From assembly GCF_018448935.1 (NCBI RefSeq), contig NZ_RCWC01000032.1:1-64000 (forward strand): DNA of 64,000 bases, written 5' to 3'. Each line of letters begins with the position of its first letter. Within the stretch, counting starts at the first letter, position 1. Positions 26,747 through 58,469 of this stretch are shown piece after piece. This DNA is from Photorhabdus noenieputensis (GTDB lineage Bacteria > Pseudomonadota > Gammaproteobacteria > Enterobacterales > Enterobacteriaceae). The position numbers and the translations under genes were made by a program. The notes under the pieces are model-generated. The model saw nothing but the letters and a program-made list of their open reading frames with translations, was not told the origin of the DNA and did no database searches.

Positions 26747-27958
26747 ATGAAAAAAAACCAAGGCTATGTTTATATCGCTACTATTTTTGATACCAAACGC
26801 GCAGAAATTTTCTACGTTAGGGATCTGATCAAAAAAGCTGGCCTTGCTGTTCGAACTGTGGATTTGACTACTCAATCAGGCTCACTGGAAAGAGGTGCCG
26901 ATATTACTGCTCAAACAGTAGCAGAATATCACCCGCAAGGTAAAGAAGCCGTTTTCTGTGGTGATAAGGGGAAAGCCATTTCCGCGATGTCAGTTGCTTT
27001 CAATGTGTTTTTATCAAAACAAACTGATGTTTTAGCAATTCTAGGTTTGGGAGGTTCCTGCGGCACAGCACTGATCACACCGGCAATGCAATCTTTACCC
27101 GTAGGGATACCAAAACTTATGGTTTCTACTATGGCTTCCGGTGATGTTTCTGGCTATGTGGGTGTTAGCGATATATCCATGCTGTATTCAGTCACCGATG
27201 TATCCGGTCTTAACCGTATCTCTCGCCAAGTGTTAAAAAACGCGGCCAACCAAATTGCAGGGGCTGTCTATTTTCATGAAGAGAACAATATTGAAGATAA
27301 ACCGGCTATTGGTCTGACGATGTTTGGTGTGACGACACCTTGCATACAGTTATTAACCAGAGAGTTGGAACAGCAGTATGATTGTCTGGTTTTCCACGCA
27401 ACCGGTAGCGGTGGCAAAACAATGGAAAAACTAGCCGAAAGCCGTTTGCTTCACAGTCTACTGGATATCACTACCACTGAAGTCTGTGACTATCTGTTTG
27501 GTGGTGTTCTTGCCTGTGACGCTGACCGTCTGGGGGCAATCGCCCGCACGCAAATACCTTATATTGGCTCTTGCGGAGCGTTGGATATGGTGAACTTTGG
27601 TCATCTAAACACTATCCCAGAACGCTACAAATACAGGCAATTTTACCGTCACAATTCGCAAGTAACATTAATGCGCACCATACCCGCAGAGAATCAGCAA
27701 ATGGGAATTTGGATCGCTGAAAAACTCAATCAGTGCGAAGGAAAAGTAAAATTCATTATTCCAGAAGGTGGTTTTTCCGCTTTGGATATTAAAGATGGGC
27801 CATTCTGGAATCCCGATGCTAATCAAGCATTTATCCAAGCTTTTGCAGCTACATTGATAGAAACGGAAAATAGACAACTAATTAAAAGCCCTCATCATGT
27901 GAATTCACCTGATTTTTGCCAACAGGTGATTAACGAATACCGGCAGATGATGGCTTAG
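26747..27958 (+). CDS. Tm-1-like ATP-binding domain protein (UPF0261)
   Basis: A 403-residue protein of the UPF0261/Tm-1 family. Its start ([20 protein letters not shown]) and [15 protein letters not shown] match the ATP-binding module first seen in tomato Tm-1, a viral-RNA replication inhibitor. Other family motifs are [15 protein letters not shown] and [10 protein letters not shown]. In many bacteria it is paired with a PEP hydrolase/TIM-barrel gene; no such partner is here. The ribosome site (GGGAAG) is distant and weak. The molecular function in bacteria is not established. Confidence 0.88.
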
Positions 27959-35024: not shown

Positions 35025-35813
35025 TAAAACGCACAATATTCATTTCCATTGCCTCCGATATTCTTGATGAGCAAAAAGCATTGTTAAACATAGCGATTAA
35101 TATCATTCCAAATATACATTTATACAAAATAACCAATGGAATTATATCATCACAATAATATTGTGATATGAATTGTCATTTTTAGTGATTAAAAAAAATT
35201 ATTTTTATAGCAATTATCTATGGAATATTTTCATACATAATATAAACAAATAATTCCCACTGAATAAATAGAATGTAATTGCATATTTATTATCGTTACT
35301 ATTTTAAATTCTAGGCGATGATATTTTACTCATAATTAAAATTAACCAAGCCAATAAACACAATTATTAAACACTTTTATTTAAGATAAATTTATATATA
35401 TTACATCCATTTCCTAAAAAAATAGATCTATATTACTTTTGCAATTAAAATATTAGATAAACAGTGCCCAAATCTTTCCTATCAACATTAGCAGAATTAA
35501 TTCTTTATATATTTAAACTGAATCGTTGTTTATCTAACTTAAAAATAACTCTTCCTAAGTAAATATAAAACCAATTGGCTTAACAAAGTTATCTAAATTG
35601 TCATATTTAGCTAATAACCTTATTGAGAAATTTTTTCTTTCCACTATTATAAATCGATGAAAGGTTATTGAGTTTATTAAACCAACCCTTTACTCTTTAA
35701 TCCGATTTCTTTTTAAAAGAAGCAAAAGACATATTTATTCGTTACATTACAAGCTGTAATTGCATTAATCACAATCGTTATTAATTTTTAAATAATTAAT
35801 TAGGATGCATTCA
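35025..35813. other. Long AT-rich stretch before the HisA-like cluster
   Basis: Nearly 790 bases, strongly AT-rich, with no frame of note, RNA or repeat that I can see. Its right end should hold the promoter of the five-gene cluster. Such long AT-rich leaders are typical of silenced (H-NS-bound) accessory clusters in these bacteria; that is inference. Confidence 0.4.
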
Positions 35814-36590
35814 ATGATAAGTAAGGAAACATTCGAGATATTTCCCTCTATAGATATTGTTGACGGAATAGCAATGACATCAAATTCCGCAATTCGATTA
35901 ACCCGTGGTGAAAGCCCCACATTACGGCGACCTTTAGGCACTCCGGCGGAAGTGGCTCTCGCCTGGCAAAATGCCGGGGCAAAATGGATACATGTTGTTG
36001 ATCTTGATGCTGCATCAGGGCGAGGCTCAAACAGCCATCTGATTGCTGATGTCCTTGCTGCGGTCAATATTAATGTACAGGTCTGTGGCGGAATCAGAGA
36101 TGAAACCATCTTGCGCAAAGTATTAGCAACCGGATGCCAACGAGTTAATTTGGGGACCGCGGCATTAGAAAATCCAGATTGGTGCGCCCGAGCGATTGCA
36201 GAATATGGCGATAAGATCGCCATTGCTCTGGATGTAAAAAGCACACCAGAAGGTTATCAACTGGCTACGCATGGATGGAATGTCAGCAAAGGCAATCTCT
36301 GGGATGTTCTTGAGCGTCTAGACAAACAGGGTTGTCAACGCTACGTCGTCACCGATATTGAGCGGGGAGGCATGATGAGTTCGCCAAACTTCACGCTATT
36401 ACAGGAAGTCTGTGCGAAAACATCATCACCCGTTATTGCCGGCGGGGGAGTATCGAGCCTGGATGATCTTCGCGCTTTAGCCGATCTGTCCACTATCGGT
36501 GTCGAAGGTGCAATTCTTGGTCAAGCTCTACATATTGGTAAGGTTCCTCTCGAAGATGCCCTTGCTGCAACACAATCATCGAGACGTTGA
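35814..36590 (+). CDS. HisA/PriA-like sugar-phosphate isomerase paralogue outside the his operon
   Basis: A 258-residue (beta/alpha)8 protein of the HisA/HisF family. Catalytic Asp equivalents are D14 in FPSIDIVDG and D181 in VVTDIERGG, and phosphate loops are CGGIR (92-95) and AGGGVSS (209-215). HisA isomerises ProFAR in histidine synthesis. Here the loop after D14 is about six residues longer (IAMTSNSAIRL), and canonical TDxxxDG has become TDIERGG, so the substrate may differ. Start ATG 35814 has AGG nine bases upstream; ATG 35805 abuts the SD. No other his genes are near; it leads a cluster with PRTase, HAD, PurA-like and Nudix genes. Confidence 0.82.
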   Translation: MISKETFEIFPSIDIVDGIAMTSNSAIRLTRGESPTLRRPLGTPAEVALAWQNAGAKWIHVVDLDAASGRGSNSHLIADVLAAVNINVQVCGGIRDETILRKVLATGCQRVNLGTAALENPDWCARAIAEYGDKIAIALDVKSTPEGYQLATHGWNVSKGNLWDVLERLDKQGCQRYVVTDIERGGMMSSPNFTLLQEVCAKTSSPVIAGGGVSSLDDLRALADLSTIGVEGAILGQALHIGKVPLEDALAATQSSRR

Positions 36591-36592
36591 AT

Positions 36593-37795
36593 ATGCCTGA
36601 ATTTTTATCTCCTGCTTTGGATCTTCGCTCTATTGGTTTACTGGGCGAATTACGTAGCGTGCCCAACACAAGATATTTAACGAAAGAAGTAATGGCACTA
36701 CCTAGTTTACTCACGGAGAAGCCAGAATTTGTGGGTTCCCGCGGTGCTGCCTATTACGAACAAAAACCTTGTCACGAACTACTGATGACGGCGAAATATT
36801 ACACAGAATATATCGCTCAACTTGAGTGTAGCGACAAGCTGTGTACTGCCCCATCAAAATATATATTGGCCGATCATAGCCTGGCAAAACTGCTCAGAAT
36901 TGTTGATAGCTTATTAAGTTCTCCGCAGACGGTTAACGAAGATATTGTGTCATTTATTGATGGGATCAAAGAGTGTGCAAAAGTCGTCAGCTCAACGCTA
37001 ATGGGCACAGCATTCACTTTTTCACCCTCGCCGATCCATGACCTGAAATTACCTTCATCTACGGAACACCAAGTGCCCAGACCGTTTATTGAAGGAGATA
37101 ATCATCTGTTAACTTTGGCCGCAGCCCAAATTGACAAATGCCCCAACTCATCTGTTATTGGCATCATGTTAGGAGGATCAGCGGCGGCGGCAGTCACAGC
37201 CGCAGCATGGAATAGTGAGCTAAATTTAGTGAAAGTTTCCCGTTACGATGATACCTCTCACAAAGGCAACCATCTCTGGGGGCGCAATATTCCACCTGAG
37301 CGAACCGTGACAATTATTGATGATAATTGTGGAACAGGTGACACCTTACGTCAGGCAATCGATCTGGTCATGGCCCAAACCGGGCAACGTCCGAAGGCCC
37401 GAGCCGTCGAACTGCATTGGGAAAAATTATTACGCACCCGCGTTTATGGACATGCTGATCGTGTATTCAGCCCTGAAACTTTAGATGTATTGACGCCTTG
37501 GTGTTTCAGACATCATCGAGTCCTGAATCGTTTAATTCATCAGCCTTTCGCTGATGATAAATATACTTATACAACTACGGCGGATTGGGTTGCCTATTCA
37601 TACAGTTTATTGTCCGTCCTTCATGACACCCTGACAGACTCAACATGGGCAGTCAAATTATTGCGTTTTTTATTAAATCTAAAAGCACAAACACCGCTGA
37701 ATTATGAACAGCCAATCGATGCATTTAAAGCCTTGGCACACCAATGTCCTGAATGTTCAGCTCGCAAAAACTCGTTTGGAAAAGGAGTTAATTGA
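36593..37795 (+). CDS. Type I phosphoribosyltransferase-like protein
   Basis: About 400 residues. A PRPP-binding motif VTIIDDNCGTGDT at 239-251 (four hydrophobics, two acids, then TG) marks a type I PRTase fold spanning roughly 165-290. GIMLGGSAAAAV at 190-201 would be the pyrophosphate loop. N- and C-terminal parts are unfamiliar; the end carries a CPEC pair and HxCxxC-like Cys (HQCPECSARK) that might bind metal. The start is ATG 36593, 2 bp after the HisA-like stop, so the two are coupled. It probably transfers or exchanges a base on a ribose-phosphate. Exact reaction unknown. Confidence 0.75.
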   Translation: MPEFLSPALDLRSIGLLGELRSVPNTRYLTKEVMALPSLLTEKPEFVGSRGAAYYEQKPCHELLMTAKYYTEYIAQLECSDKLCTAPSKYILADHSLAKLLRIVDSLLSSPQTVNEDIVSFIDGIKECAKVVSSTLMGTAFTFSPSPIHDLKLPSSTEHQVPRPFIEGDNHLLTLAAAQIDKCPNSSVIGIMLGGSAAAAVTAAAWNSELNLVKVSRYDDTSHKGNHLWGRNIPPERTVTIIDDNCGTGDTLRQAIDLVMAQTGQRPKARAVELHWEKLLRTRVYGHADRVFSPETLDVLTPWCFRHHRVLNRLIHQPFADDKYTYTTTADWVAYSYSLLSVLHDTLTDSTWAVKLLRFLLNLKAQTPLNYEQPIDAFKALAHQCPECSARKNSFGKGVN

Positions 37796-37797
37796 TT

Positions 37798-38457
37798 ATG
37801 ACAACAGCACATATTATTTGGGATTGGAATGGCACATTACTTAATGATGTCAATGTTTCATTGAGCGCAACCAATTTCGCACTAGCAGAAATTGGTATTG
37901 AACCACTGACGCTGGATCAATATCGGGAACATTATTGTGTTCCAGTACAAACTTTCTATAAACAAGTGATTGGCCGAGAACCTTCATCTTCTGAATGGTC
38001 AGTAATCGGAAAAATATTTAATTTTCACTATCTCCCAGGTATTCAGAAAGCCAGTTTAACAGAAGGTGTAAACCAGCTCCTCGCTTCCCGCTATGAAACA
38101 GGTGCAACTCAGTCAATATGCTCATTGATGGAGCATCATGAATTGGTCCCTATGCTTGATAATCATGGTATTGGCAAATTCTTTACCCAAATAGATGGCA
38201 GAAATACGCCATTATTGATCACCGGCAAATCAGAGCAATTGGCTAACCATCTCAAAAAACTCAATGTTTCTCCTGAACAAAGTGTGGTTATTGGCGACGC
38301 CACCGATGACGCAATTGCCGCATTAGCAGCAGGAACTCATGCCATTCTTTATACCGGAGGAACCCACAGTCGTGTCAGTCTTGAAACTGCCGGTGTTCCC
38401 GTGGTTGATACATTAAGTGAAGCGTTATTAATAGCTGACTCTTTGGTCCATAAATAA
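37798..38457 (+). CDS. HAD-superfamily phosphatase (DWNGT subtype)
   Basis: A 219-residue HAD hydrolase of the phosphoglycolate-phosphatase type. Motif I is IIWDWNGTLLND with nucleophile D9; the usual second Asp (DxD) is Asn. Motif III Lys is in TGKSEQ and motif IV is IGDATDDAIAA. The cap region (about 20-85) is helical. GGAG (37784-37787) serves ATG 37798; a TTG at 37792 overlaps the PRTase stop. It could remove a phosphate from the product of the neighbouring genes. Confidence 0.82.
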   Translation: MTTAHIIWDWNGTLLNDVNVSLSATNFALAEIGIEPLTLDQYREHYCVPVQTFYKQVIGREPSSSEWSVIGKIFNFHYLPGIQKASLTEGVNQLLASRYETGATQSICSLMEHHELVPMLDNHGIGKFFTQIDGRNTPLLITGKSEQLANHLKKLNVSPEQSVVIGDATDDAIAALAAGTHAILYTGGTHSRVSLETAGVPVVDTLSEALLIADSLVHK

Positions 38458-38637
38458 CTATAAATAGGTTGTTCAAAATAATCGGATAAGAAAAGGGATA
38501 ATTTATAACGGTGTACGAATAGATAGTTAGCATATTAGTTTTAAAAGAGCAGATTATTCATCTTAAAAAAGATTATCCAAACTGGATGATTTAACTATTA
38601 TTTAGGGTAAATCAATAAATAATTAAGGAATAGATTC

Positions 38638-39897
38638 ATGTTAACGGCTGTAGTTGGACTCCAATTTGGAGATGAAGGCAAAGGAAAATTTGTTGACTAT
38701 TTATCTAGTAATATCAATAATATTGCTCGGTTCAATGGCGGCGCTAATGCAGGTCATTGTGTGCAACATGGTAATCTAAGAGGCTCTTTTTCTCAATTAC
38801 CCGCATCACTCAACAAAAAGAACTTATATATCTGCCAAGGTGCTTTAATCAGTCTTCCCATTCTGGTTAAAGAGATCGACTTTATACAAAAAGAACACAT
38901 TGATTCTAATATATTTATCGACCCGCGATGCCATATTGTCTTACCATTACACTCCGAGTTAAATCGAGCGTCAGAAAAATATAAAGGTAAACAGAAGATA
39001 GGCTCAGTTGGTGTCGGTGTCGGGGCTTGTGTTGAAGACAAAACCAACCGTCATGGTATTCGGCTTATTGATACACTTGATAAAGAAAAATTAAGGAGTA
39101 AATTAGCATTTCTTTGGAATATCAGAGAAAAACAAATCAATCATGTTTTTAATGCACAAACCACATTAAATTTTGAAGAGATGTTAGAAACAACACATCA
39201 ATATGGCAAGAGGATAGCACCCTATTTCACGTTCACTAATGAAATTATCGGTGATTTACTTAATTCGGGAAAGGATGTTTTACTTGAAACATCACAAGCC
39301 ACTTTCTTAGATAATAGTTTCGGTACTTATCCTTATACCGTGGCGTATCAGACATTAGTGCAAACCTGCTTTGCCATGATAGGTATACCGGCACAAAAAA
39401 TGCATATTGTCGGTGTAATGAAATCTTATATGATCCGTGTCGGTAACGGACCATTCCCCACAGAATTATTGACAGAACAGGCTGATTACATTCGAGAACG
39501 CGGAAACGAGTATGGCACCGTTTCAAAAAGGCCAAGGCGTTGTGGCTGGCTGGACTTATCTCTGATTAAACACGCGGTGAAACTCAATGGCGTAACCGAA
39601 CTCGCCATAACGAATGTTGATGTTCTTGCTGATTTACATGAAATAAAAGCCGCTATTGCCTATGAAATCGATGATAAGCCCATCTGTTGCGATGAAGCAT
39701 TATTACAGCTCGATAGAGCCAAACCTATCTATAAAACATTTAAACCCTGGGGCGCACTTAACTCATCATATACACATTTAACAGAACTACCTACTGAGCT
39801 GATTGACTTCTTAACTTTTATTCAAGACTATGCTGGTATCCCAATCAAATATATTTCCTATGGGCCAGACAGAAATCAGACATTAGTCATGAAATAA
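38638..39897 (+). CDS. Divergent adenylosuccinate synthetase paralogue (PurA-like)
   Basis: A 419-residue PurA-family enzyme. Catalytic D12 (GDEGKGK) and H40 (GGANAGH) are kept, as are RPRRCGWLD (298-306), GNGPFPTEL and GPDR near the end. The IMP-phosphate loop is altered: canonical IGTTGRGIGP reads IGSVGVGVGA (121-130). QGT-type and NTTAGG motifs are changed to SQATFLD and YQTLVQT, and the GTP-base motif TKxD is TNVD (325-328). These changes suggest a different nucleotide or base acceptor and not housekeeping PurA. Start has AAGGAATA upstream; 180 bp separate it from the HAD gene. Confidence 0.88.
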   Translation: MLTAVVGLQFGDEGKGKFVDYLSSNINNIARFNGGANAGHCVQHGNLRGSFSQLPASLNKKNLYICQGALISLPILVKEIDFIQKEHIDSNIFIDPRCHIVLPLHSELNRASEKYKGKQKIGSVGVGVGACVEDKTNRHGIRLIDTLDKEKLRSKLAFLWNIREKQINHVFNAQTTLNFEEMLETTHQYGKRIAPYFTFTNEIIGDLLNSGKDVLLETSQATFLDNSFGTYPYTVAYQTLVQTCFAMIGIPAQKMHIVGVMKSYMIRVGNGPFPTELLTEQADYIRERGNEYGTVSKRPRRCGWLDLSLIKHAVKLNGVTELAITNVDVLADLHEIKAAIAYEIDDKPICCDEALLQLDRAKPIYKTFKPWGALNSSYTHLTELPTELIDFLTFIQDYAGIPIKYISYGPDRNQTLVMK

Positions 39898-39913
39898 AAG
39901 CGTGGAGAAAATA

Positions 39914-40342
39914 ATGATTCACTATGTAACAGGGTTTATGTTTTCTAAAGATAAAAAACATGTTTCCCTGATTTCAAAATTACAACCCAGTTGGCAAAAA
40001 GGGAAGCTTAACGGGGTTGGTGGAAAAATAGAGGCTGGTGAAAGCCCTCAACAAGCAATGGCAAGAGAATTTGCCGAAGAAGCCGGCATTGAAACACGGC
40101 CTGAAGAGTGGCGATTATTTACCGTCTTAACTCGCCCTGACGTTTATCAGGTAAATTTTCTCTACATGTATGATGATCGGGTCTATTCTGTCAATTCTAT
40201 TGAAAAAGAGATCGTTAATATCTATGAAACAAATTCATTACCCGATAATGTGATCTATAATTTACGTTGGTTGATTCCGATGGCGGCCGATGAGCATTTA
40301 CGTTTCGATAAAGAGATAGAGATAACAGAAATGCGGGGTTAG
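39914..40342 (+). CDS. Nudix hydrolase
   Basis: A 142-residue Nudix protein with a complete Nudix box (GKIEAGESPQQAMAREFAEE then AGI), so it should be active on a nucleoside diphosphate derivative or oxidised nucleotide. GGAG six bases before ATG 39914 decides the start; a GTG at 39902 is in frame. It lies 16 bp after the PurA-like gene and is the last gene of the cluster, followed by an ERIC copy. It may clean up or act on a pathway intermediate; substrate unknown. Confidence 0.85.
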   Translation: MIHYVTGFMFSKDKKHVSLISKLQPSWQKGKLNGVGGKIEAGESPQQAMAREFAEEAGIETRPEEWRLFTVLTRPDVYQVNFLYMYDDRVYSVNSIEKEIVNIYETNSLPDNVIYNLRWLIPMAADEHLRFDKEIEITEMRG

Positions 40343-48332: not shown

Positions 48333-48872
48333 TTATTGATAAGTCAACTGGAAGTTGGCAATGCCGGTGAAATTACCCGGAACAACAGCATCAGGTGAAG
48401 TATCCCCCTGAAGATAGGCAGCAAAACGCAGATCATTATTACCATCACGCAGAGCGACAGCCGGTGAAGGGGTACCTAGTTTGATTTTGTTACCACCCGC
48501 ATCAGTGATCGCAATACCCGCACCTTTAGCAATTCCTTCGATACCTAGCAAACCATCACCGCCGGTGATGCTAGATTTAGCGCCAACAAACGTCGTGGTG
48601 ACTGTACTTATCGTTTCAGTCGTACAGTTATCTAAAGAAATTTTGAATGGCGTGGAAGAAGAACGGCCACCGTTTTGCAAAGATAAGCTAGAAATAGAGC
48701 CTAGTGGGACTACCTGATCAACTGTTTCCGGGGTGATAGAACAAGGTGAATCAGTAATAGACCCGGTAAAAGTCACCGTTCCGTGACCTTGGCTAGGATT
48801 CGCTGCATTGACAGAACCCGCAGCCAAAGCTACACCTAACCCCAGGGCCATAACCAATTTATTCAATCTCAT
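48333..48872 (-). CDS. mrpA: Major fimbrial subunit (MrpA-like pilin)
   Basis: About 179 residues. Signal peptide MRLNKLVMALGLGVALAAG with cleavage near SVNA-ANPSQG. Mature pilin has TFTGSITDSPCSITPE (first Cys), SLDNCTTE (second) and FQLTYQ (donor strand). I start at ATG 48872, with AAGGAATT nine bases upstream; the longer frame to 48956 has no signal or SD. It is first in the operon, downstream of the invertible promoter segment, so its expression should be phase-variable. Confidence 0.93.
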   Translation of the reverse strand: MRLNKLVMALGLGVALAAGSVNAANPSQGHGTVTFTGSITDSPCSITPETVDQVVPLGSISSLSLQNGGRSSSTPFKISLDNCTTETISTVTTTFVGAKSSITGGDGLLGIEGIAKGAGIAITDAGGNKIKLGTPSPAVALRDGNNDLRFAAYLQGDTSPDAVVPGNFTGIANFQLTYQ

Positions 48873-49007
48873 GTGAATTAATTCCTTGAATTTAAGGATA
48901 AAATACCCAATACCATAAAAAAATAACCGTGCAGGATTCCAGCTCCATGCACCCAATATTCAGCGCAAAATAATTTAAAAATATCGGATTAATATTTTTC
49001 TAAACCA

Positions 49008-49027
49008 AACAAAATGCACCAAACTGT
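49008..49027. repeat. Left inverted repeat of the fimbrial phase switch
   Basis: AACAAAATGCACCAAACTGT, 19/20 identical to the reverse complement of the right repeat at 49295-49314. It lies between the pilin and recombinase genes, where P. mirabilis mrp has its recombination site. Confidence 0.87.
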
Positions 49028-49294: not shown

Positions 49295-49314
49295 ACAGTT
49301 TGGTGCATTCTGTT
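49295..49314. repeat. Right inverted repeat of the fimbrial phase switch
   Basis: ACAGTTTGGTGCATTCTGTT; its reverse complement differs from the left repeat at one position. It lies about 240 bp upstream of the recombinase start. Confidence 0.87.
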
Positions 49315-49556
49315 CAGTTTCTTTTTATTGTTAAATAATTTCCAAATATATAATTACAAAGCTAACAAGTTGATATTTTCTATTAAAAAATGGCTATTTA
49401 TAACTATCTAAAAACGATATTTATAGATTTTTGTCAAAATCAATAGAGTTACCAGCTAATAATTTTATAGAAGTTCTATTAATTGATATATTCCGGTAGA
49501 TTAATATTATTTTTCTACCTATAACTATCCGCCCCAATTGCACAGGAATTATTTTC

Positions 49557-50129
49557 ATGAAGAAACGTAAGTTTTTAACCAGATATGAAATTAATGCGAT
49601 TTTAGAAAAAGCACGTCAGGGACGTCACGCCGAGCGAGATTATTGCATGTTATTGATGTGCTTTATTCATGGTTTTAGAGTGAGCGAACTATGTAATCTA
49701 ACGTTATCCGATCTTGATCTTAGTTCGGAAATTATTCACGTCAGGCGATTAAAAGGGGGATTATCAACAACACACCCGCTAATACCCGAAGAAATTAAAG
49801 CACTAAATCAATGGCTTAATATTAGAAAAAGTTGGCGAGAATCAGATACGGAATGGGTCTTTTTATCACAAAAATCAGGGGCTATTTCACGCCAGCAAGT
49901 TTATGGTTTATTAAAACGTTATGGCAAGCAAGCATTAGTTAATATTTCACCTCATCCACACATGTTAAGACATGCTTGTGGTTACGCTCTCGCTGATTTA
50001 GGAAGAGATACACGCCTTATTCAAGATTACCTCGGTCATCGAAATATATCCCATACCGTTATTTACACCGCAAGCAATGTGAAACGATTCTTCAAGATAT
50101 GGGAGGCTCCTACGAAAGGACTCGATTAA
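49557..50129 (+). CDS. mrpI: Tyrosine recombinase of the fimbrial switch (MrpI/FimB family)
   Basis: A 190-residue short tyrosine recombinase with all catalytic residues: R41 (GFRVSEL), K66, H135 and R138 (HPHMLRHACG), H161 (LGHRN) and nucleophile Y170 (VIYTASN). It has only the catalytic domain, like FimB/FimE/MrpI. Divergent from the fimbrial operon and next to the inverted repeats, it should flip the promoter segment. Ends 81 bp before a bidirectional hairpin terminator. Confidence 0.95.
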   Translation: MKKRKFLTRYEINAILEKARQGRHAERDYCMLLMCFIHGFRVSELCNLTLSDLDLSSEIIHVRRLKGGLSTTHPLIPEEIKALNQWLNIRKSWRESDTEWVFLSQKSGAISRQQVYGLLKRYGKQALVNISPHPHMLRHACGYALADLGRDTRLIQDYLGHRNISHTVIYTASNVKRFFKIWEAPTKGLD

Positions 50130-50496: not shown

Positions 50497-51093
50497 TTAA
50501 TCAGCTACTTGAATATTTGGAGAATGAGAAAGATAGCCAATAAGATTACCCGTGTTGTCTTTAACATTCCATCTTTCGAAAATGGATATATACCATGAAT
50601 ATTTGGCTATGCCTGGAGTACGTAATTTAGATCCTTGATTGAAAATATTACGAGTTTCAAACACGACAGGATAGTCTTGGTTCGTCCCTGACGTTGCCCC
50701 TTTACTTGGGGCCGCCACTTGAGATATAGCTGAAGTTAGGGTCGGTGGCGAAACTAGCGATTGGGTACCTACCCCGGCCATATGATATAGAAAGACCTGA
50801 TCATCAAATTGAGCTGATAGGGTTGAAGCTCGCCATCTAACGATATCCCCCACCTTACCTTGAATTAAAAGTGTACCTTGAGCATTATTTTTGGGAATAT
50901 AGATATTATTTTGAGAGGTAATGTAATAAATATATTTATCACCCATTACCGTTGGTTTGCTAGGGTCCGGACTAATGGCCTTACCCAGATCGTTTGTGAT
51001 AGCTTTTACATCAACAACGGCAAGAACATCAATAAATTGTACACCAATAGCGGATTTTATATCATCCGGATCTGCATATTCAATATTATTCAT
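50497..51093 (-). CDS. AidA/PixA inclusion-body family protein (pair 1, second gene)
   Basis: A 198-residue member of the AidA/PixA family, named after the Xenorhabdus inclusion protein PixA. The family pattern is QFIDVLAVVDVKAI at the start, then YYITSQNNIYIPKNNAQGTL, GDIVRWRASTLSAQF and SKYSWYISIFERW-type ending (SWYISIFERW). Nearly identical to the gene at 52314. No signal peptide; cytoplasmic inclusion or regulated abundant protein. Lies 39 bp after its partner gene. Crystal formation is inferred from the family. Confidence 0.85.
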   Translation of the reverse strand: MNNIEYADPDDIKSAIGVQFIDVLAVVDVKAITNDLGKAISPDPSKPTVMGDKYIYYITSQNNIYIPKNNAQGTLLIQGKVGDIVRWRASTLSAQFDDQVFLYHMAGVGTQSLVSPPTLTSAISQVAAPSKGATSGTNQDYPVVFETRNIFNQGSKLRTPGIAKYSWYISIFERWNVKDNTGNLIGYLSHSPNIQVAD

Positions 51094-51132
51094 AATACCA
51101 TTCCTATTTTTACATATTGGTTTTATAAGTAT

Positions 51133-51714
51133 TTAATTATCCAGAACTTTAATGAAAGGATCATGACAAACATATCCAATGAGTTGTCTTTTACGATATA
51201 TTTTCATATACCAGGTATATTGACCGTATCCCTCTTTCTGAGCCGTCGAGTGATGATAATATCTTGTTATTAATCCGCCACTATTTTCTCCATCTCTTTT
51301 ATATACTACACTACTTATATTATTATTATCATCTTTAGCCAAATAAGGAATAGAAATATCACCAAAATCAAGTTCCGGTAATGATATAAGCGTAACACCA
51401 CCACCACCAATTGCTGTTCCTGTCATTTGGCATAAAAGTACTGTATATTCAAATTGCTGTGTCAAAGACATTGGTCTCCATCTAATGACATCACCAACAT
51501 TGACAGTTATCTCCAACTCGCCTTTAGCATTATTTTTAGGCGCATAAAGATTCCCAGTACTTGTTATATAATAAAAATAATCGTTAGATACCGCTTTTGC
51601 AGTTCCTAATGTTTGTGATTTACTTAAATCATGACGACTAACGATAGCTTCTGCATCGACACAAATCAGAATATCTACAACTTGATCTTTCAAAATCGTT
51701 ATAGAGTCACTCAT
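51133..51714 (-). CDS. AidA/PixA inclusion-body family protein (pair 1, first gene)
   Basis: A 193-residue AidA/PixA family protein. Stretches include DQVVDILICVDAEAIVSRHD, YYITSTGNLYAPKNNAKGEL and VIRWRPMSLTQQF. It belongs to a different subgroup from its downstream partner (Q-rich FEYTVLL compared with DDQVFLYHM). It heads the bicistron; the conserved palindrome sits 77-100 bases upstream of the ATG. GGAG precedes the start. Confidence 0.85.
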   Translation of the reverse strand: MSDSITILKDQVVDILICVDAEAIVSRHDLSKSQTLGTAKAVSNDYFYYITSTGNLYAPKNNAKGELEITVNVGDVIRWRPMSLTQQFEYTVLLCQMTGTAIGGGGVTLISLPELDFGDISIPYLAKDDNNNISSVVYKRDGENSGGLITRYYHHSTAQKEGYGQYTWYMKIYRKRQLIGYVCHDPFIKVLDN

Positions 51715-51790
51715 ATCTCTATCTCCTTCACAATAAAGTGTTAGATTGTTTAATAATCATCTTTTATATTAATAAGTAAGACCAAAAAAA

Positions 51791-51814
51791 CCACTAATAT
51801 AAATCATAGTTTTT
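51791..51814 (-). promoter_or_regulatory. Conserved operator-like palindrome upstream of pair 1
   Basis: On the - strand: AACTATGATTTATATTAGTG. The same block occurs upstream of pairs 2 and 3 at almost the same distance (77-100 bases). Its TATGA-N6-TtAGT layout resembles a degenerate CRP/FNR half-site pair. Regulator unknown. Confidence 0.5.
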
Positions 51815-52217
51815 AAAATCAAATTACTTGTATTTTTATAATGATTTTCCAGCATATAAATAAGACTCACATTAATATTGAATTACAAAATTATTATTTC
51901 TAGTATTAAATCACTACTTGTAAACATAAGTCATTCAACATTCTCTCTTGCGTTAAAGTTATACTTTCCTGATATTTAACTATGAAATTATTTTTTTCAT
52001 AACTAACAATAAAAACACTGAGTAAAAAATAAAATATCGAGTAATTAATTTAACTTTAAACCTTTAGTTTAATAATAAAATAAGGGAAAACTTTATATAT
52101 TTGGTCAGTAATATGGCAGTGAAACTTTTATATTAAATATCATTCTGCCTACCCTTGGCATAACACATATATCAATCAGTTGAATAATTAGATTACCATT
52201 AATCATCGTAAATGAAG

Positions 52218-52254
52218 TAAAATCACTGGAAATTATACTCTGTTTTCCAGTGAT
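52218..52254 (-). terminator. Terminator of PixA pair 2
   Basis: ATCACTGGAAA (52222-52232) and TTTCCAGTGAT (52244-52254), the same stem as after pair 1, with TTTTAC following on the - strand. Confidence 0.78.
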
Positions 52255-52313
52255 AATTTACCAACTGTTAATATTTCATGGTTGATTTATTCATTTTTTA
52301 GGCAATGTTAAAT

Positions 52314-52910
52314 TTAATCAACGACTTGAATATTTAGAGAATGAGTAAGATAGCCAACAAGATTACCAACGTTGTCTTTCACATTCCATCTTTCGAAAAT
52401 GGATATATACCATGAATATTTGGCTATACCTGGAGTACGTAATTTAGATCCTTGATTGAAAATATTACGAGTTTCAAACACGACAGGATAGTCTTGATTA
52501 GTCCCTGACGTTGCCCCTTTGCTTGGGGCCGCGACTTGAGATATCGCTGAAGTTAGCGTTGGTGGCGAAACCAGCGATTGGGTGCCTACCCCGGCCATAT
52601 GATATAGAAATACCTGATCATCAAATTGAGCTGATAGCGTCGAAGCTCGCCATCTAACAATATCCCCTACCTTACCTTGAATTAAAAGTGTACCTTGAGC
52701 ATTATTTTTGGGAATATAGATATTATTTTGAGAAGTAATGTAATAAATGTATTTATCATCCATTACCGTTGGTTTGCTAGGGTCCTGACTAATGGAATTA
52801 CTCAGATCGTTTGTGATAGCTTTTACATCAACAACGGCAAGAACATCAATAAATTGTACACCAATAATGGGTTTTATATCATCTAGATCTGTATATTCAA
52901 TATTACTCAT
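52314..52910 (-). CDS. AidA/PixA inclusion-body family protein (pair 2, second gene)
   Basis: A 198-residue protein nearly identical to the gene at 50497, differing mainly near the start (DLDDIKPIIG compared with DPDDIKSAIG) and the end (GYLTHSLNIQVVD). The start and the 39-bp gap to its partner are the same as in pair 1. Both genes of the pair are displaced by exactly 1817 bp from pair 1, which points to one tandem duplication event. Confidence 0.85.
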   Translation of the reverse strand: MSNIEYTDLDDIKPIIGVQFIDVLAVVDVKAITNDLSNSISQDPSKPTVMDDKYIYYITSQNNIYIPKNNAQGTLLIQGKVGDIVRWRASTLSAQFDDQVFLYHMAGVGTQSLVSPPTLTSAISQVAAPSKGATSGTNQDYPVVFETRNIFNQGSKLRTPGIAKYSWYISIFERWNVKDNVGNLVGYLTHSLNIQVVD

Positions 52911-52949
52911 AATACTATTCCTCTTTTTATATATTGGTTTTATAAGTAT

Positions 52950-53531
52950 TTAATTATCTAGAACTGTAATGAAAGGGTCATGACCAATATATCCGATTAG
53001 TTGTTTTTTACGATATATTTTCATATACCAGACATACGAACCACGCCCCGCTCTCTGGGCTATTGACTCATGATAATATCTTGTTATTAGCCCGCCGTTA
53101 TCTTCTCCATCCCTTTTATATACCACACTACTTATATTATTATTATCATCTTTAGCCAAATAAGGAATAGAAATATCACCAAAATCAAGTTGTGGTAATG
53201 TTATAAGCGAAACGCCATTGCCGTCATTAACTTGTAATCTCATGTAGCATAAAAGTATTGTATATTCAAATTGCTGCGTCAAAGACATTGGCCTCCATCT
53301 AATGACATCAGCAACGTTAACAGTTACCTCCAACTCTCCTTTGGCATTATTTTTAGGCGTATAAAGATTTCCAGTGCTTGTTACATAATAAAAATATTTA
53401 TTATGTACTGATTTTGCCGTCCCTAGTGTTTTTGATTTACTTAAATCATAATTACTAAGGATAGCTTCTACATCCACACAAATGAGAATATCTATAACTT
53501 GATCTTTCAAAATCGCTATAACGTCGCTCAT
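52950..53531 (-). CDS. AidA/PixA inclusion-body family protein (pair 2, first gene)
   Basis: A 193-residue homologue of the gene at 51133. It is more diverged than the second-gene pair: for example VDVEAILSNYDLSKSKTLG compared with VDAEAIVSRHDLSKSQTLG, and MRLQVNDGNG compared with MTGTAIGGGG. The SD and the leader palindrome are shared with pair 1. It keeps the IRWRPMSLTQQFEYT core of the family. Confidence 0.85.
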   Translation of the reverse strand: MSDVIAILKDQVIDILICVDVEAILSNYDLSKSKTLGTAKSVHNKYFYYVTSTGNLYTPKNNAKGELEVTVNVADVIRWRPMSLTQQFEYTILLCYMRLQVNDGNGVSLITLPQLDFGDISIPYLAKDDNNNISSVVYKRDGEDNGGLITRYYHESIAQRAGRGSYVWYMKIYRKKQLIGYIGHDPFITVLDN

Positions 53532-54066
53532 ATCTATTCTCCTTCACAATAAAGTGTTAGATTGTTTAACAATCATCTATTATATTAATAATTCAGTTAA
53601 AAAAAACCACTGATATAAATCATAGTTTTTAAAAATAAATTATCCATATATTTAAAATAATTAATTTAATATATAAATAAATTCCATATTAATATTGAAA
53701 TGAAAAATTATTATTTTTAGTATTAAATCACCATTTGCAAACATAAATAATTCAACATTCTCTCTTGAGTTAAAGTTATACTTTTGTGATATTTAACCGT
53801 AAAATTAATTTTTTACTGTTATTTATAAGAAATTAACAATAAAAATATTGTAGTAAAAATAAAATATTAAATAATTAACTTAACTATAAATTTATATTTT
53901 AATAATAAAATGAAAATAAATTTAATATATTTAGTAAGTAATATGGCAGTGAAACTTTAAGTTTTTATATTTAATACCATTCTGCCTATCCTTGGCGTAA
54001 CACGTATATTAATTCGTCAAACTAAAATACTAAGTTACATTAGCTAGTTAAATAGTTAGATTACAA
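53532..54066. other. Intergenic region of the PixA array (unit 2/3 boundary)
   Basis: About 535 AT-rich bases, recognisably related to 51715-52200, including the operator block (53607-53630) and ATATGGCAGTGAAACTTT near 53940. The terminator stem found after pairs 1 and 2 is missing here, so pair 3 ends without it. No other gene seen. Confidence 0.5.
53607..53630 (-). promoter_or_regulatory. Conserved operator-like palindrome upstream of pair 2
   Basis: On the - strand: AACTATGATTTATATCAGTG. Contains TGAT-N4-ATCA, the core of an FNR/CRP-type site. Lies 76-99 bases upstream of the pair 2 start. Confidence 0.52.
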
Positions 54067-54657
54067 TTAATCTTCAGAAATAACGATACTAGTTAATGGC
54101 GTATGATAGCAATAACCAACAAGCTTATTTGAGTCATCATAGATAGATAGATACCATGCATATTGAACTATACCAGGTCTACGCAGCGTAGATTTTTGAT
54201 AGTAAATATGTCTTTTTTCATAGAAAAAATCGGATAAAGGCTCTTGTGGCAATTCAATAATATCTTCTTTCGGAGGCATTAGCGCTTTTTTAATCTTGGG
54301 AACAACAACATTCGTTAATGTATATATAGTCATTGGTTGAGAAATGCAATCATCAGCATCCTTTTTTTCCAGACGATATAAAAACACCTTATGGTTAAAT
54401 TGAGCAGATATGCTAGAAGATTGCCACCTAACCATATCACCTACCTTACCTGTAACTTTAAGTGAATTTGTAGCGTTTTTCTCGGGAGAATATGCTTGAT
54501 ACTCAGTGGTAATATAATATAACAAGTTATCATCAATTTTAGTCGGCTTTTTATAATCCTGGCTCAGACGGTCAAACTTATTTAAGATAGATTGCACATC
54601 AATACAGATTAAAATATCTATACTCTTAGAAAATTCAGCATTATCATCAGTATTCAT
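54067..54657 (-). CDS. AidA/PixA inclusion-body family protein (pair 3, second gene)
   Basis: A 196-residue family member, clearly more divergent: SIDILICIDVQSILNKFDRL, YYITTEYQAYSPEKNATNSL, DMVRWQSSSISAQFNHKVFL and an RRPGIVQYAWYLSIYDDS end. The middle (about 105-145) is Lys/Pro-rich and unique. Its position, second in the pair, and its Ser-Ile-Ser-Ala-Gln-Phe block tie it to the 50497/52314 subgroup. Confidence 0.83.
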   Translation of the reverse strand: MNTDDNAEFSKSIDILICIDVQSILNKFDRLSQDYKKPTKIDDNLLYYITTEYQAYSPEKNATNSLKVTGKVGDMVRWQSSSISAQFNHKVFLYRLEKKDADDCISQPMTIYTLTNVVVPKIKKALMPPKEDIIELPQEPLSDFFYEKRHIYYQKSTLRRPGIVQYAWYLSIYDDSNKLVGYCYHTPLTSIVISED

Positions 54658-54693
54658 AATGTTGGCCCTATTATCTTATATTGATTTTGTAAT

Positions 54694-55215
54694 TTACAAA
54701 ACGTGAACAAAAGAGCTATGAGAAATATACCCAATTAACTCAAGGTTATAATGTATGCTTATTATAAAAGTCAATTTTTCTCTACCTGATTTCTTACCTT
54801 CTGATTCTATATAAGATTGTGTTACAGATTCTACTCCATATTTAAACGGTGTACCGGGTAACTGCTTATCATCTTGTTCTGGGTAATTGACCCTTGTGAC
54901 TTCTTGAATATACTTTATCGGTGCGATAGTTTTATAACTATTTTCTTTAGTTTTTTTGTATAAGTTTACTGAATGTATTAATTGTTGAGTTAAAGATATT
55001 ACTCTCCACCTGACAGTATCGCCGACACCCACTTTTACTATCAATTTACCCGTAGCATTATCTTCAGGTATATCAGCATTTTCATTATTAGTAATGTAAT
55101 GAAAATATTTATTATCTACCATTGCAGGGTTGTCTGGATTTGTTCCCAGTTTATTGTAGTTATTAATAATACCATCAACATCCACACAAATAAGAACATC
55201 TACAGTTTCATTCAT
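54694..55215 (-). CDS. AidA/PixA inclusion-body family protein (pair 3, first gene)
   Basis: A 173-residue member, shorter than its homologues in pairs 1 and 2 (193). It has TVDVLICVDVDGIINNYNKL, HYITNNENADIPEDNATGKL and VRWRVISLTQQLIHSVNLY. It is the first gene of the third bicistron, 36 bp before its partner; the operator block (55294-55316) lies 79-101 bases upstream of its start. Confidence 0.82.
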   Translation of the reverse strand: MNETVDVLICVDVDGIINNYNKLGTNPDNPAMVDNKYFHYITNNENADIPEDNATGKLIVKVGVGDTVRWRVISLTQQLIHSVNLYKKTKENSYKTIAPIKYIQEVTRVNYPEQDDKQLPGTPFKYGVESVTQSYIESEGKKSGREKLTFIISIHYNLELIGYISHSSFVHVL

Positions 55216-57158: not shown

Positions 57159-57854
57159 TCATTTCCTTTAAATCTATGCAATAATCTACGTAATACAACA
57201 TCAAAAAATTCATAATCTTTTCTTATCAATAGGCGTGGTTTTTCAATAAGAAAATCTGGGGTTAATCAACTACCACGTGCCACAATTCCAAGCAGCACCA
57301 TGCAGATTGCTACACTGAGTCATTAAACTAACGCATAAAAAAACACCTTACTCATTTATCTATAACTTAGTTGAGGATTTCCTAAGCAAGACAGTTATTA
57401 ATTGTCCATATTTGATTAACGGCATGTAAATAATATGCGTTTTTTTTGTTAATAGCAAAAGTTCTGAATATATCGATCCTGATCGTGATTTTAAACTATA
57501 CTTAATAAATGGTTTATGTACGAAAGCATATATCTGGAGATAACAGTAACTAATTGAAAAATAGTAAAAACATCTGCCATAAGCACTGCGCATCTCAAAG
57601 AAATATTATCCTCTCAATCGATATTCAGTAATAGAGGAAGCGAGTCAGACCAAACTATCTGTTATTACAAACTATCTGTTATTAAAAGCTATTTATGAAC
57701 ATTAGCCACTGAAATTGATGACATAATCTAAGCTTTTCATACAAAGTTAAACACTCTGGCATTCCAGTCAATCCAGCCAGGAAAATTCAATAAGATATTG
57801 ACAATAGATGGCACACATGGAAAGAATCATCTCGAAACCATTAGGAGATTAGTG
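57159..57854. other. Intergenic stretch between the transferase and the pRiA4b ORF-3 gene
   Basis: About 700 bases. A 77-codon frame at 57360-57593 (-) is low-complexity and has no family or SD; I treat it as chance. The rest is AT-rich with no RNA gene. The transferase promoter should be near 57170-57250. Confidence 0.4.
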
Positions 57855-58469
57855 ATGAATGAAAAATTCTATCAATTAAAAATAACACTTACAGACTCAA
57901 AACCCGCTATTTGGCGGCAATTTGTCGTTCCAGCCTCTATTTCATTTGACAGGCTGCATGACGTGATACAAATCGTTATGGGATGGCAGGATAGTCATCT
58001 ACATGAATTTCGCATTGGCAAATTGCGATTAACAGAAATGCCAGAAAGCTCATCTGATAGCAAGGAAGAAGATTTATACCGTCTGGCTGATCTGATTAAA
58101 CAAAAAGGGCGATCTTTTACCTATCTCTATGATTTTAGCGATGAATGGGAACACGAAATTACCTTAGAAAACAGTCATTATCCTGCCAATAACCTCCCGC
58201 TTCCTTTTTATTGTCTGGATGGCGCTCGCGCTTGTCCCTTGGAAGATACCGGCGGGATTGACGGTTATGAAAATTTAATCGCAATACTGAATGATCCTGA
58301 CCATGAGGAATATGTAGATACACAGCAATGGGTAAGTGAATTACTTGCTCTGGATGAAGATGAAGATTTCGACTTCGAACAATTTCCCATTAGCAATATT
58401 AATGCCTTTCTAGCGCTCTATTATCGCTGGTCACGAGATCGTTACCATCTCTTGTGGGATTGGGAATGA
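57855..58469 (+). CDS. Plasmid pRiA4b ORF-3 family protein
   Basis: A 204-residue protein of the pRiA4b ORF-3 family. The family features are YQLKITLTDSKPAIWRQF at the start, MGWQDSHLHEF, YLYDFSDEWEHEI in the centre and an acidic ending. The start is ATG 57855 with AGGAG seven bases upstream; the longer frame from 57798 has no SD. Family members occur on plasmids, in transposons and as single chromosomal genes; molecular function is unknown. It stands alone. Confidence 0.87.
   Translation: MNEKFYQLKITLTDSKPAIWRQFVVPASISFDRLHDVIQIVMGWQDSHLHEFRIGKLRLTEMPESSSDSKEEDLYRLADLIKQKGRSFTYLYDFSDEWEHEITLENSHYPANNLPLPFYCLDGARACPLEDTGGIDGYENLIAILNDPDHEEYVDTQQWVSELLALDEDEDFDFEQFPISNINAFLALYYRWSRDRYHLLWDWE

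Follow-up and report, generated by a model that had tools for sequence, protein, structure and literature searches.

A window of 64,000 nucleotides from the 5.36 Mb genome of Photorhabdus noenieputensis (positions 1 to 64,000 of contig NZ_RCWC01000032.1, assembly GCF_018448935.1) carries, at 35805–40342 on the plus strand, five genes that on balance probably form a dedicated biosynthetic operon, with a small phosphoribosyl-derived, nucleoside-like metabolite as its predicted product. The unit belongs to Photorhabdus and to part of Xenorhabdus, symbionts of insect-killing nematodes. In order, these genes encode a PriA-type (HisA/TrpF-like) TIM-barrel protein, a phosphoribosyltransferase (PRTase)-like protein, a HAD hydrolase, a ligase resembling the adenylosuccinate synthetase PurA, and a Nudix hydrolase. 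We favour a dedicated pathway because the cluster brings together enzymes of histidine, purine and phosphoribosyl pyrophosphate (PRPP)-using families that come in addition to the housekeeping set, bear fixed alterations and move as a unit.

Five genes of nucleotide-related families outside the housekeeping operons

An earlier reading of the window made without database searches (the sequence-only reading) had described five neighbouring plus-strand genes of ribose-phosphate or nucleotide families, the first three nearly contiguous or overlapping and none in its housekeeping operon, and this description was borne out throughout. All five open reading frames were confirmed, and searches with Pfam and NCBIfam models assigned their products to families: the PriA-type protein (35805–36590) matched PF00977 at 204 bits, the HAD hydrolase (37792–38457) HAD_2 at 61.9 bits, the PurA-like ligase (38638–39897) PF00709 at 429 bits and the Nudix hydrolase (39902–40342) NUDIX at 44.4 bits. 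The 402-residue PRTase-like protein (36587–37795), which has a helical N-terminal extension, scored 23.4 bits against PF00156, under the model's cut-off of 26.3.

With the listed TTG starts the first three genes overlap by 4 bases, and with the likelier ATG starts at 36593 for the PRTase and 37798 for the HAD protein, the latter behind AAAGGAG, they are separated by 2 bases. The gaps upstream of the PurA-like and Nudix genes are 180 and 4 bases, respectively. A second ATG in the PriA-type gene, at 35814, where the sequence-only reading had placed the start, agrees with the start of several relatives and is possibly the start here. A supposed difference in GC content between the first three and last two genes was dropped, as GC at third codon positions (GC3) was 0.32–0.38 in all five, and a promoter scan stood at chance level (22 found versus 21.6 expected). 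Housekeeping hisA and hisF lie on another contig of the same genome and housekeeping purA also lies elsewhere; the HisA-like and PurA-like proteins of the cluster are therefore extra enzymes.

The HisA-like protein stands closest to PriA

The PF00977 match upholds the broad HisA-like label of the sequence-only reading, but the protein is closer to PriA. Its best NCBIfam model was TIGR01919 (hisA-trpF), at 295.8 bits versus 187.9 for TIGR00007 (HisA), and it is 50–54% identical to three actinobacterial PriA proteins versus 33% to the HisA of its own genome. The TIGR01919 score lies under the equivalog cut-off of 306.45. The PriA family has been termed exclusive to Actinomycetota (PMC13055916; here and below, statements on published systems refer to the available excerpts of the cited papers). 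Catalysis by PriA involves Asp11 and Asp175, while its substrate phosphoribosylformimino-5-aminoimidazole carboxamide ribotide (ProFAR) needs Arg19, Arg85, Thr105, Trp145 and Thr170, and phosphoribosylanthranilate (PRA) needs Arg143, Ser81 and His50 (PMC13055916). At position 81, HisA has Gly and PriA has Ser, while members of a third subfamily have Thr (PMC4462073).

We compared these positions, in PriA numbering, between the PriA-type proteins of 18 genomes carrying the five genes and a reference set of three PriA, one HisA and one HisF, to which the AdeK sequence discussed below did not belong. Asp11, Arg19, His50, Arg85 and Thr105 are kept in 18/18 cluster proteins, as are Asp130, Trp145 and Thr170 in 17/17, one protein having a deletion. 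Because the ProFAR-binding residues are kept, the pocket should still accept a ProFAR-like ligand with two phosphates. The PRA-specific Ser81 is replaced by Cys (18/18) and Arg143 by His (17/17, again with one deletion), and Ser200 is Gly in all 18. The sequence-only reading had also pointed to an altered TDxxxDG motif, and rightly so: it reads TDxERGG, with Gly in place of Asp175 in 18/18 proteins (that of Xenorhabdus budapestensis locus L037 being aligned across its deletion), at a position that is Asp in the HisA and HisF of the same genome and in the three compared PriA. Judged from this alignment, the canonical acid–base pair is incomplete, and Glu173, invariant in 17/17 proteins, could stand in for Asp175. 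The longer active-site loop that had been claimed was found after strand 1, where a 6-residue insert yields AMTSNSAI in 18/18 proteins, but not consistently in loop 5, which has four more residues than in two of the three PriA and is no longer than in the third.

A PurA-like ligase with changes at the presumed IMP pocket

The PurA-like protein matches its family over the full length, at 428.7 bits, where full-length housekeeping PurA sampled from 120 genomes scored 538–624. Its residues were compared with those of the 30 best-scoring housekeeping PurA, a biased choice. Asp13 and His41, which we take to be catalytic, are kept along with the GDEGKGK loop, presumed to be functional on the same footing, in 17/17 proteins that have that region; Arg303 and Arg305, presumably for aspartate, and Asp333, presumably for guanine, are kept in 18/18. 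Thr129 and Thr239, which we assume to be ligands of the phosphate of inosine monophosphate (IMP), are both Val in 18/18 cluster proteins and Thr in 30/30 housekeeping PurA. Further changes comprise Thr128Ser, Arg131Val/Ile, Gly225Ala, Lys331Asn (position 331 is likewise non-Lys in PDB chain 4m0g_A) and the replacement of Val238-Thr239-Ser240-Ser241 by Thr-Val-Ala-Tyr. On these residue assignments, the pattern is that of an enzyme predicted to retain the use of guanosine triphosphate (GTP) and aspartate with its other substrate changed. Identity with the Z-genome enzyme PurZ was rejected, as model NF038379 gave 99.9 bits versus its cut-off of 300, and the best plasmid match (38%, Lactococcus) has unrelated neighbours.

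The PRTase, HAD and Nudix proteins

A structural model of the PRTase built from 17 sequences reached a mean predicted local distance difference test score (pLDDT) of 59.7, with better values at about residues 60–165 and 185–272; an earlier 8-sequence model (mean pLDDT 48) was left out of the fold search. The core of the predicted fold aligns to PyrR, APRT, HGXPRT and OPRT, in a comparison that barely covered the C-terminal third and much of the helical N-terminal region. The protein classes as a type I PRTase, having both the fold and an acidic PRPP motif, and we propose from the model that it transfers phosphoribose from PRPP. Seven of its cysteines are invariant.

Motif I of the HAD protein, DWNGT, is common to its relatives in Streptomyces and Kitasatospora. 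Its best plasmid relative (51%, Streptomyces chartreusis) adjoins genes for GTP cyclohydrolase, QueE and 6-carboxytetrahydropterin synthase (preQ0-type) as well as a Nudix gene. This context is a hint and nothing firmer, since both PRTase and PriA are absent from that 40.6-kb stretch and the PRTase from the whole plasmid. The Nudix box Gx5Ex7REUxEExGU was matched in 18/18 Nudix proteins, the U positions being left open in the pattern, and the best plasmid match (41%, Variovorax) has no related neighbours. A role in anti-phage defence was tried and not taken up, as PADLOC models gave just one weak Nudix match of 33 bits.

The five genes move as a unit within Photorhabdus and part of Xenorhabdus

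The PRTase was present in 12/12 Photorhabdus genomes searched and in 6 of the 30 from the Xenorhabdus group (the genus of X. szentirmaii). A family sample of 198 genomes from 154 genera held it twice, both times in Photorhabdus, and the class (1/369) and phylum (1/398) samples held it solely in the window's own genome; no other genus in these three samples had the gene. These samples lay within the window's own phylum, and the operon may have had an actinobacterial source. The PriA-like gene was likewise found in 5 of 392 genomes of the family, all Photorhabdus. A scan of genome contigs with a profile of 12 PRTases recovered 16 loci (11 Photorhabdus, 4 Xenorhabdus and one metagenome-assembled genome of Enterobacteriaceae); because it relied on two peptide patterns, distant relatives could be missed. 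A phage or plasmid origin was rejected, as the PRTase had no match among plasmid or phage records, nor in viral contigs when these were scanned in a way that detects close relatives only.

Whether the genes are co-conserved was the check named in the sequence-only reading, and all five occur in identical order and strand in 18/18 PRTase-bearing genomes checked (12 Photorhabdus and 6 Xenorhabdus-group, with the P. akhurstii locus, L028, left out), an outcome that speaks for that reading. Within the Xenorhabdus group, the HAD (E ≤ 1e-20) and PriA-like (E ≤ 1e-50) genes occur in exactly the 6/30 genomes that have the PRTase, an overlap with a probability of 1.7e-6 per gene under a random draw of genomes, a figure that ignores kinship. 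In the other 24 genomes, the test covered these three genes of the unit. The flanks vary around the unit, a MATE gene lying near it in 7/12 Photorhabdus stretches and a helix-turn-helix (HTH) gene in 8/12; the neighbours compared were window genes within the stretches fetched, and those private to other genomes were left out.

Pairwise ratios of nonsynonymous to synonymous substitution (dN/dS) had medians of 0.04–0.17 in every gene of the unit, of which the PRTase evolves fastest (0.14–0.17). The five genes evolve under purifying selection. Pairs with dS ≥ 3 were dropped. For the PRTase, 8/12 Photorhabdus and 4/6 Xenorhabdus-group sequences were used, the broken copy of L037 and hits that extended beyond an earlier stop being left out; the PriA-type gene was represented by 5/6 Xenorhabdus-group sequences, and the HAD and PurA-like genes by 11/12 Photorhabdus sequences.

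Relation to described nucleoside clusters

The nearest described logic is that of the adechlorin (2'-amino-2'-deoxyadenosine; ade) cluster, which contains the PriA paralogue AdeK; with Ser81Cys and Arg143His, AdeK has lost TrpF activity and kept HisA activity (PMC13055916). The likeness lies in an extra PriA paralogue with the same two substitutions in a nucleoside cluster. However, AdeK keeps Asp175 and complements hisA, whereas the Photorhabdus protein is Asp175Gly; the ade cluster has HisG-type and succinylaminoimidazole carboxamide ribotide (SAICAR)-synthetase-type genes (PMC13055916), where the Photorhabdus unit encodes a PRTase of type I fold along with a PurA-like ligase. The five-gene unit also differs in sitting in Gammaproteobacteria. 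Because HisG- and SAICAR-synthetase-type genes are missing, the unit is not a member of the ade/pentostatin-type clusters. AdeK is a precedent that the sequence-only reading, which knew of no matching described pathway, left unnamed. From the housekeeping PriA of Actinomycetota, with which it shares the identity and the retained ProFAR-binding residues described above, the cluster protein differs in its score under the TIGR01919 cut-off, in Asp175Gly, Ser81Cys and Arg143His, and in its longer loop 1.

Photorhabdus is reported to make nucleosides from small operons, namely 3'-amino-3'-deoxyguanosine (PMC9239236) and 4'-thiothymidine (PMC12691670). The adg operon of P. luminescens, responsible for the former, is likewise a small nucleoside operon of five genes, but as described it consists of adgB–E, homologues of pur10, pur4, pur7 and pur3, plus an MFS gene, with no PriA, PRTase or PurA (PMC9239236). 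Being unlike our five genes, it was ruled out as the same operon, as were the thm genes for 4'-thiothymidine, which in the published excerpt show no correspondence to the five (PMC12691670). The tubercidin cluster offers another likeness, with a PRTase that builds the nucleotide, a Nudix enzyme that removes phosphate and proposed PurA/PurB chemistry; it differs in its 7-deazapurine scaffold, in the absence of a PriA gene from the account available and in its PurA step, for which the use of the primary-metabolic enzyme is proposed (PMC6112128). A cluster of the hydantocidin type was set aside, as no paper on hydantocidin biosynthesis was among the matches listed and an Amadori product was reasoned not to give its carbon skeleton. 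No published description of the five-gene operon was among the matches listed in the open-licence literature.

A proposed pathway and its alternatives

For a dedicated biosynthetic operon we infer the substrates, step order and product, as well as any export or bioactivity, as follows. The type I-fold PRTase would couple PRPP to a heterocycle or amine, and the PriA-type protein may then rearrange the resulting bis-phosphoribosyl compound, or one resembling ProFAR or its phosphoribulosyl counterpart PRFAR; Asp11/Asp130, or Glu173, which is new and invariant, would act as acid and base. In the PurA-like enzyme, GTP would activate a ring carbonyl for the addition of aspartate to a substrate other than IMP, after which housekeeping PurB may release fumarate. 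Removal of phosphates by the Nudix and HAD proteins would free the product. A modified nucleoside or imidazole metabolite, as suggested in the sequence-only reading, is a plausible product with a precedent in AdeK; substrates, product and even the reaction of the HisA-like protein are putative.

Several observations weigh against such a biosynthetic role. The isomerase reaction is doubtful because Asp175, catalytic in PriA, is lost. Motif I of HAD phosphatases is DxDx[TV], and in the DWNGT of all 18 cluster proteins Asn replaces the second Asp. Three of the 18 units have a broken member: the HAD gene of L017 (Photorhabdus) has an early stop, the PurA-like protein of L020 (Photorhabdus) is without its first 81 residues, and in L037 the PriA-like protein has an internal deletion and the PRTase frame is broken. 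Unlike the ade and pen clusters, the unit is without HisG, short-chain dehydrogenase/reductase (SDR) and SAICAR synthetase, and among the compared window neighbours no transporter or regulator is common to all 18, the MATE and HTH genes being absent from the six Xenorhabdus-group stretches. Insofar as an antibiotic-type role is meant, the presence of the PRTase in every Photorhabdus genome searched also counts against it.

Because of that presence, the operon may serve core symbiosis rather than competition. A pathway of core physiology or symbiosis, in which the same chemistry would yield a nucleotide-derived signal, cofactor or salvage route with an internal role, would likewise suit the strong purifying selection and the finding that the neighbours compared have no exporter or regulator common to all units. 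We nevertheless consider it unlikely, given that the PRTase is found in just 6/30 Xenorhabdus-group genomes and in none of the other genera sampled, that one member is broken in each of 2/12 Photorhabdus (the HAD gene in L017, the PurA-like gene in L020), and that other Photorhabdus nucleoside antibiotics arise from equally small operons (PMC9239236, PMC12691670).

It is improbable that the genes constitute an antimetabolite defence set, in which the PurA-like protein would be an inhibitor-resistant adenylosuccinate synthetase while Nudix and HAD would clear toxic nucleotides made from the PRTase product. A second PurA beside the housekeeping one would suit this, as would changes that cluster around the IMP pocket (on the assumed residue roles), but a resistance copy must still use IMP, and the loss of both presumed IMP-phosphate threonines in 18/18 proteins should impair this. 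In favour of a defence set, hydantocidin monophosphate and hadacidin are both directed at PurA (PMC6136348). That the cluster holds redundant hisA and purA copies with ordinary activities, retained by chance next to other nucleotide genes, seems to us very improbable indeed: both families are recognised with strong scores, but the PurA-like score falls below the housekeeping range, active-site changes are fixed in both proteins and three genes co-occur exactly across 30 genomes. As read from the alignments, these fixed changes argue against simple duplicates of hisA or purA.

Other features of the window

A 26-nucleotide inverted repeat (88%), with arms at 49002–49027 and 49295–49320 that lie 267 nucleotides apart, stands between a gene for a fimbrial-type subunit (48333–48956, minus strand; labelled from reading the sequence) and one for a tyrosine recombinase (49557–50129, plus strand, PF00589), and resembles an invertible promoter switch for fimbriae. 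On the minus strand, 50497–55215 holds a row of PixA-like inclusion-body paralogues; two were tested and both match PF12306. A plasmid pRiA4b ORF-3-like protein is encoded at 57798–58469 (PF07929, 202 bits). The two-domain UPF0261 protein at 26747–27958 is encoded near genes that, from reading, resemble a TetR regulator, an amino-acid transporter and a tryptophanase/tyrosine phenol-lyase, and in X. budapestensis (L037) a UPF0261 relative stands at a distance of 6–7 kb from the five-gene unit. Plasmids of Pantoea ananatis (L052) and Mycetohabitans (L047) carry similar uncharacterised clusters of two Nudix genes, aminotransferases, a Gfo/Idh oxidoreductase, HAD, a desaturase and methylthioadenosine (MTA) phosphorylase, possibly another nucleoside-type pathway.

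Implications

Enzyme specialisation has been studied closely in PriA, a family described as exclusive to Actinomycetota, and here a PriA-type protein occurs in Gammaproteobacteria with the substitutions of AdeK and with Asp175 lost. We suggest, tentatively and with some doubt, that a PriA scaffold without Asp175, a PurA without IMP-phosphate recognition and a new PRTase family might together carry out two reactions new to these families and give a new class of nucleoside-like metabolite kept for life with nematodes and insects. The operon is small, occurs in laboratory strains that are tractable and could be expressed whole in Escherichia coli, making its chemistry directly testable. Nematode symbionts are a productive source of antibiotics, and the operon could bring to light a new nucleoside as well as new reactions of two folds that are already well studied.

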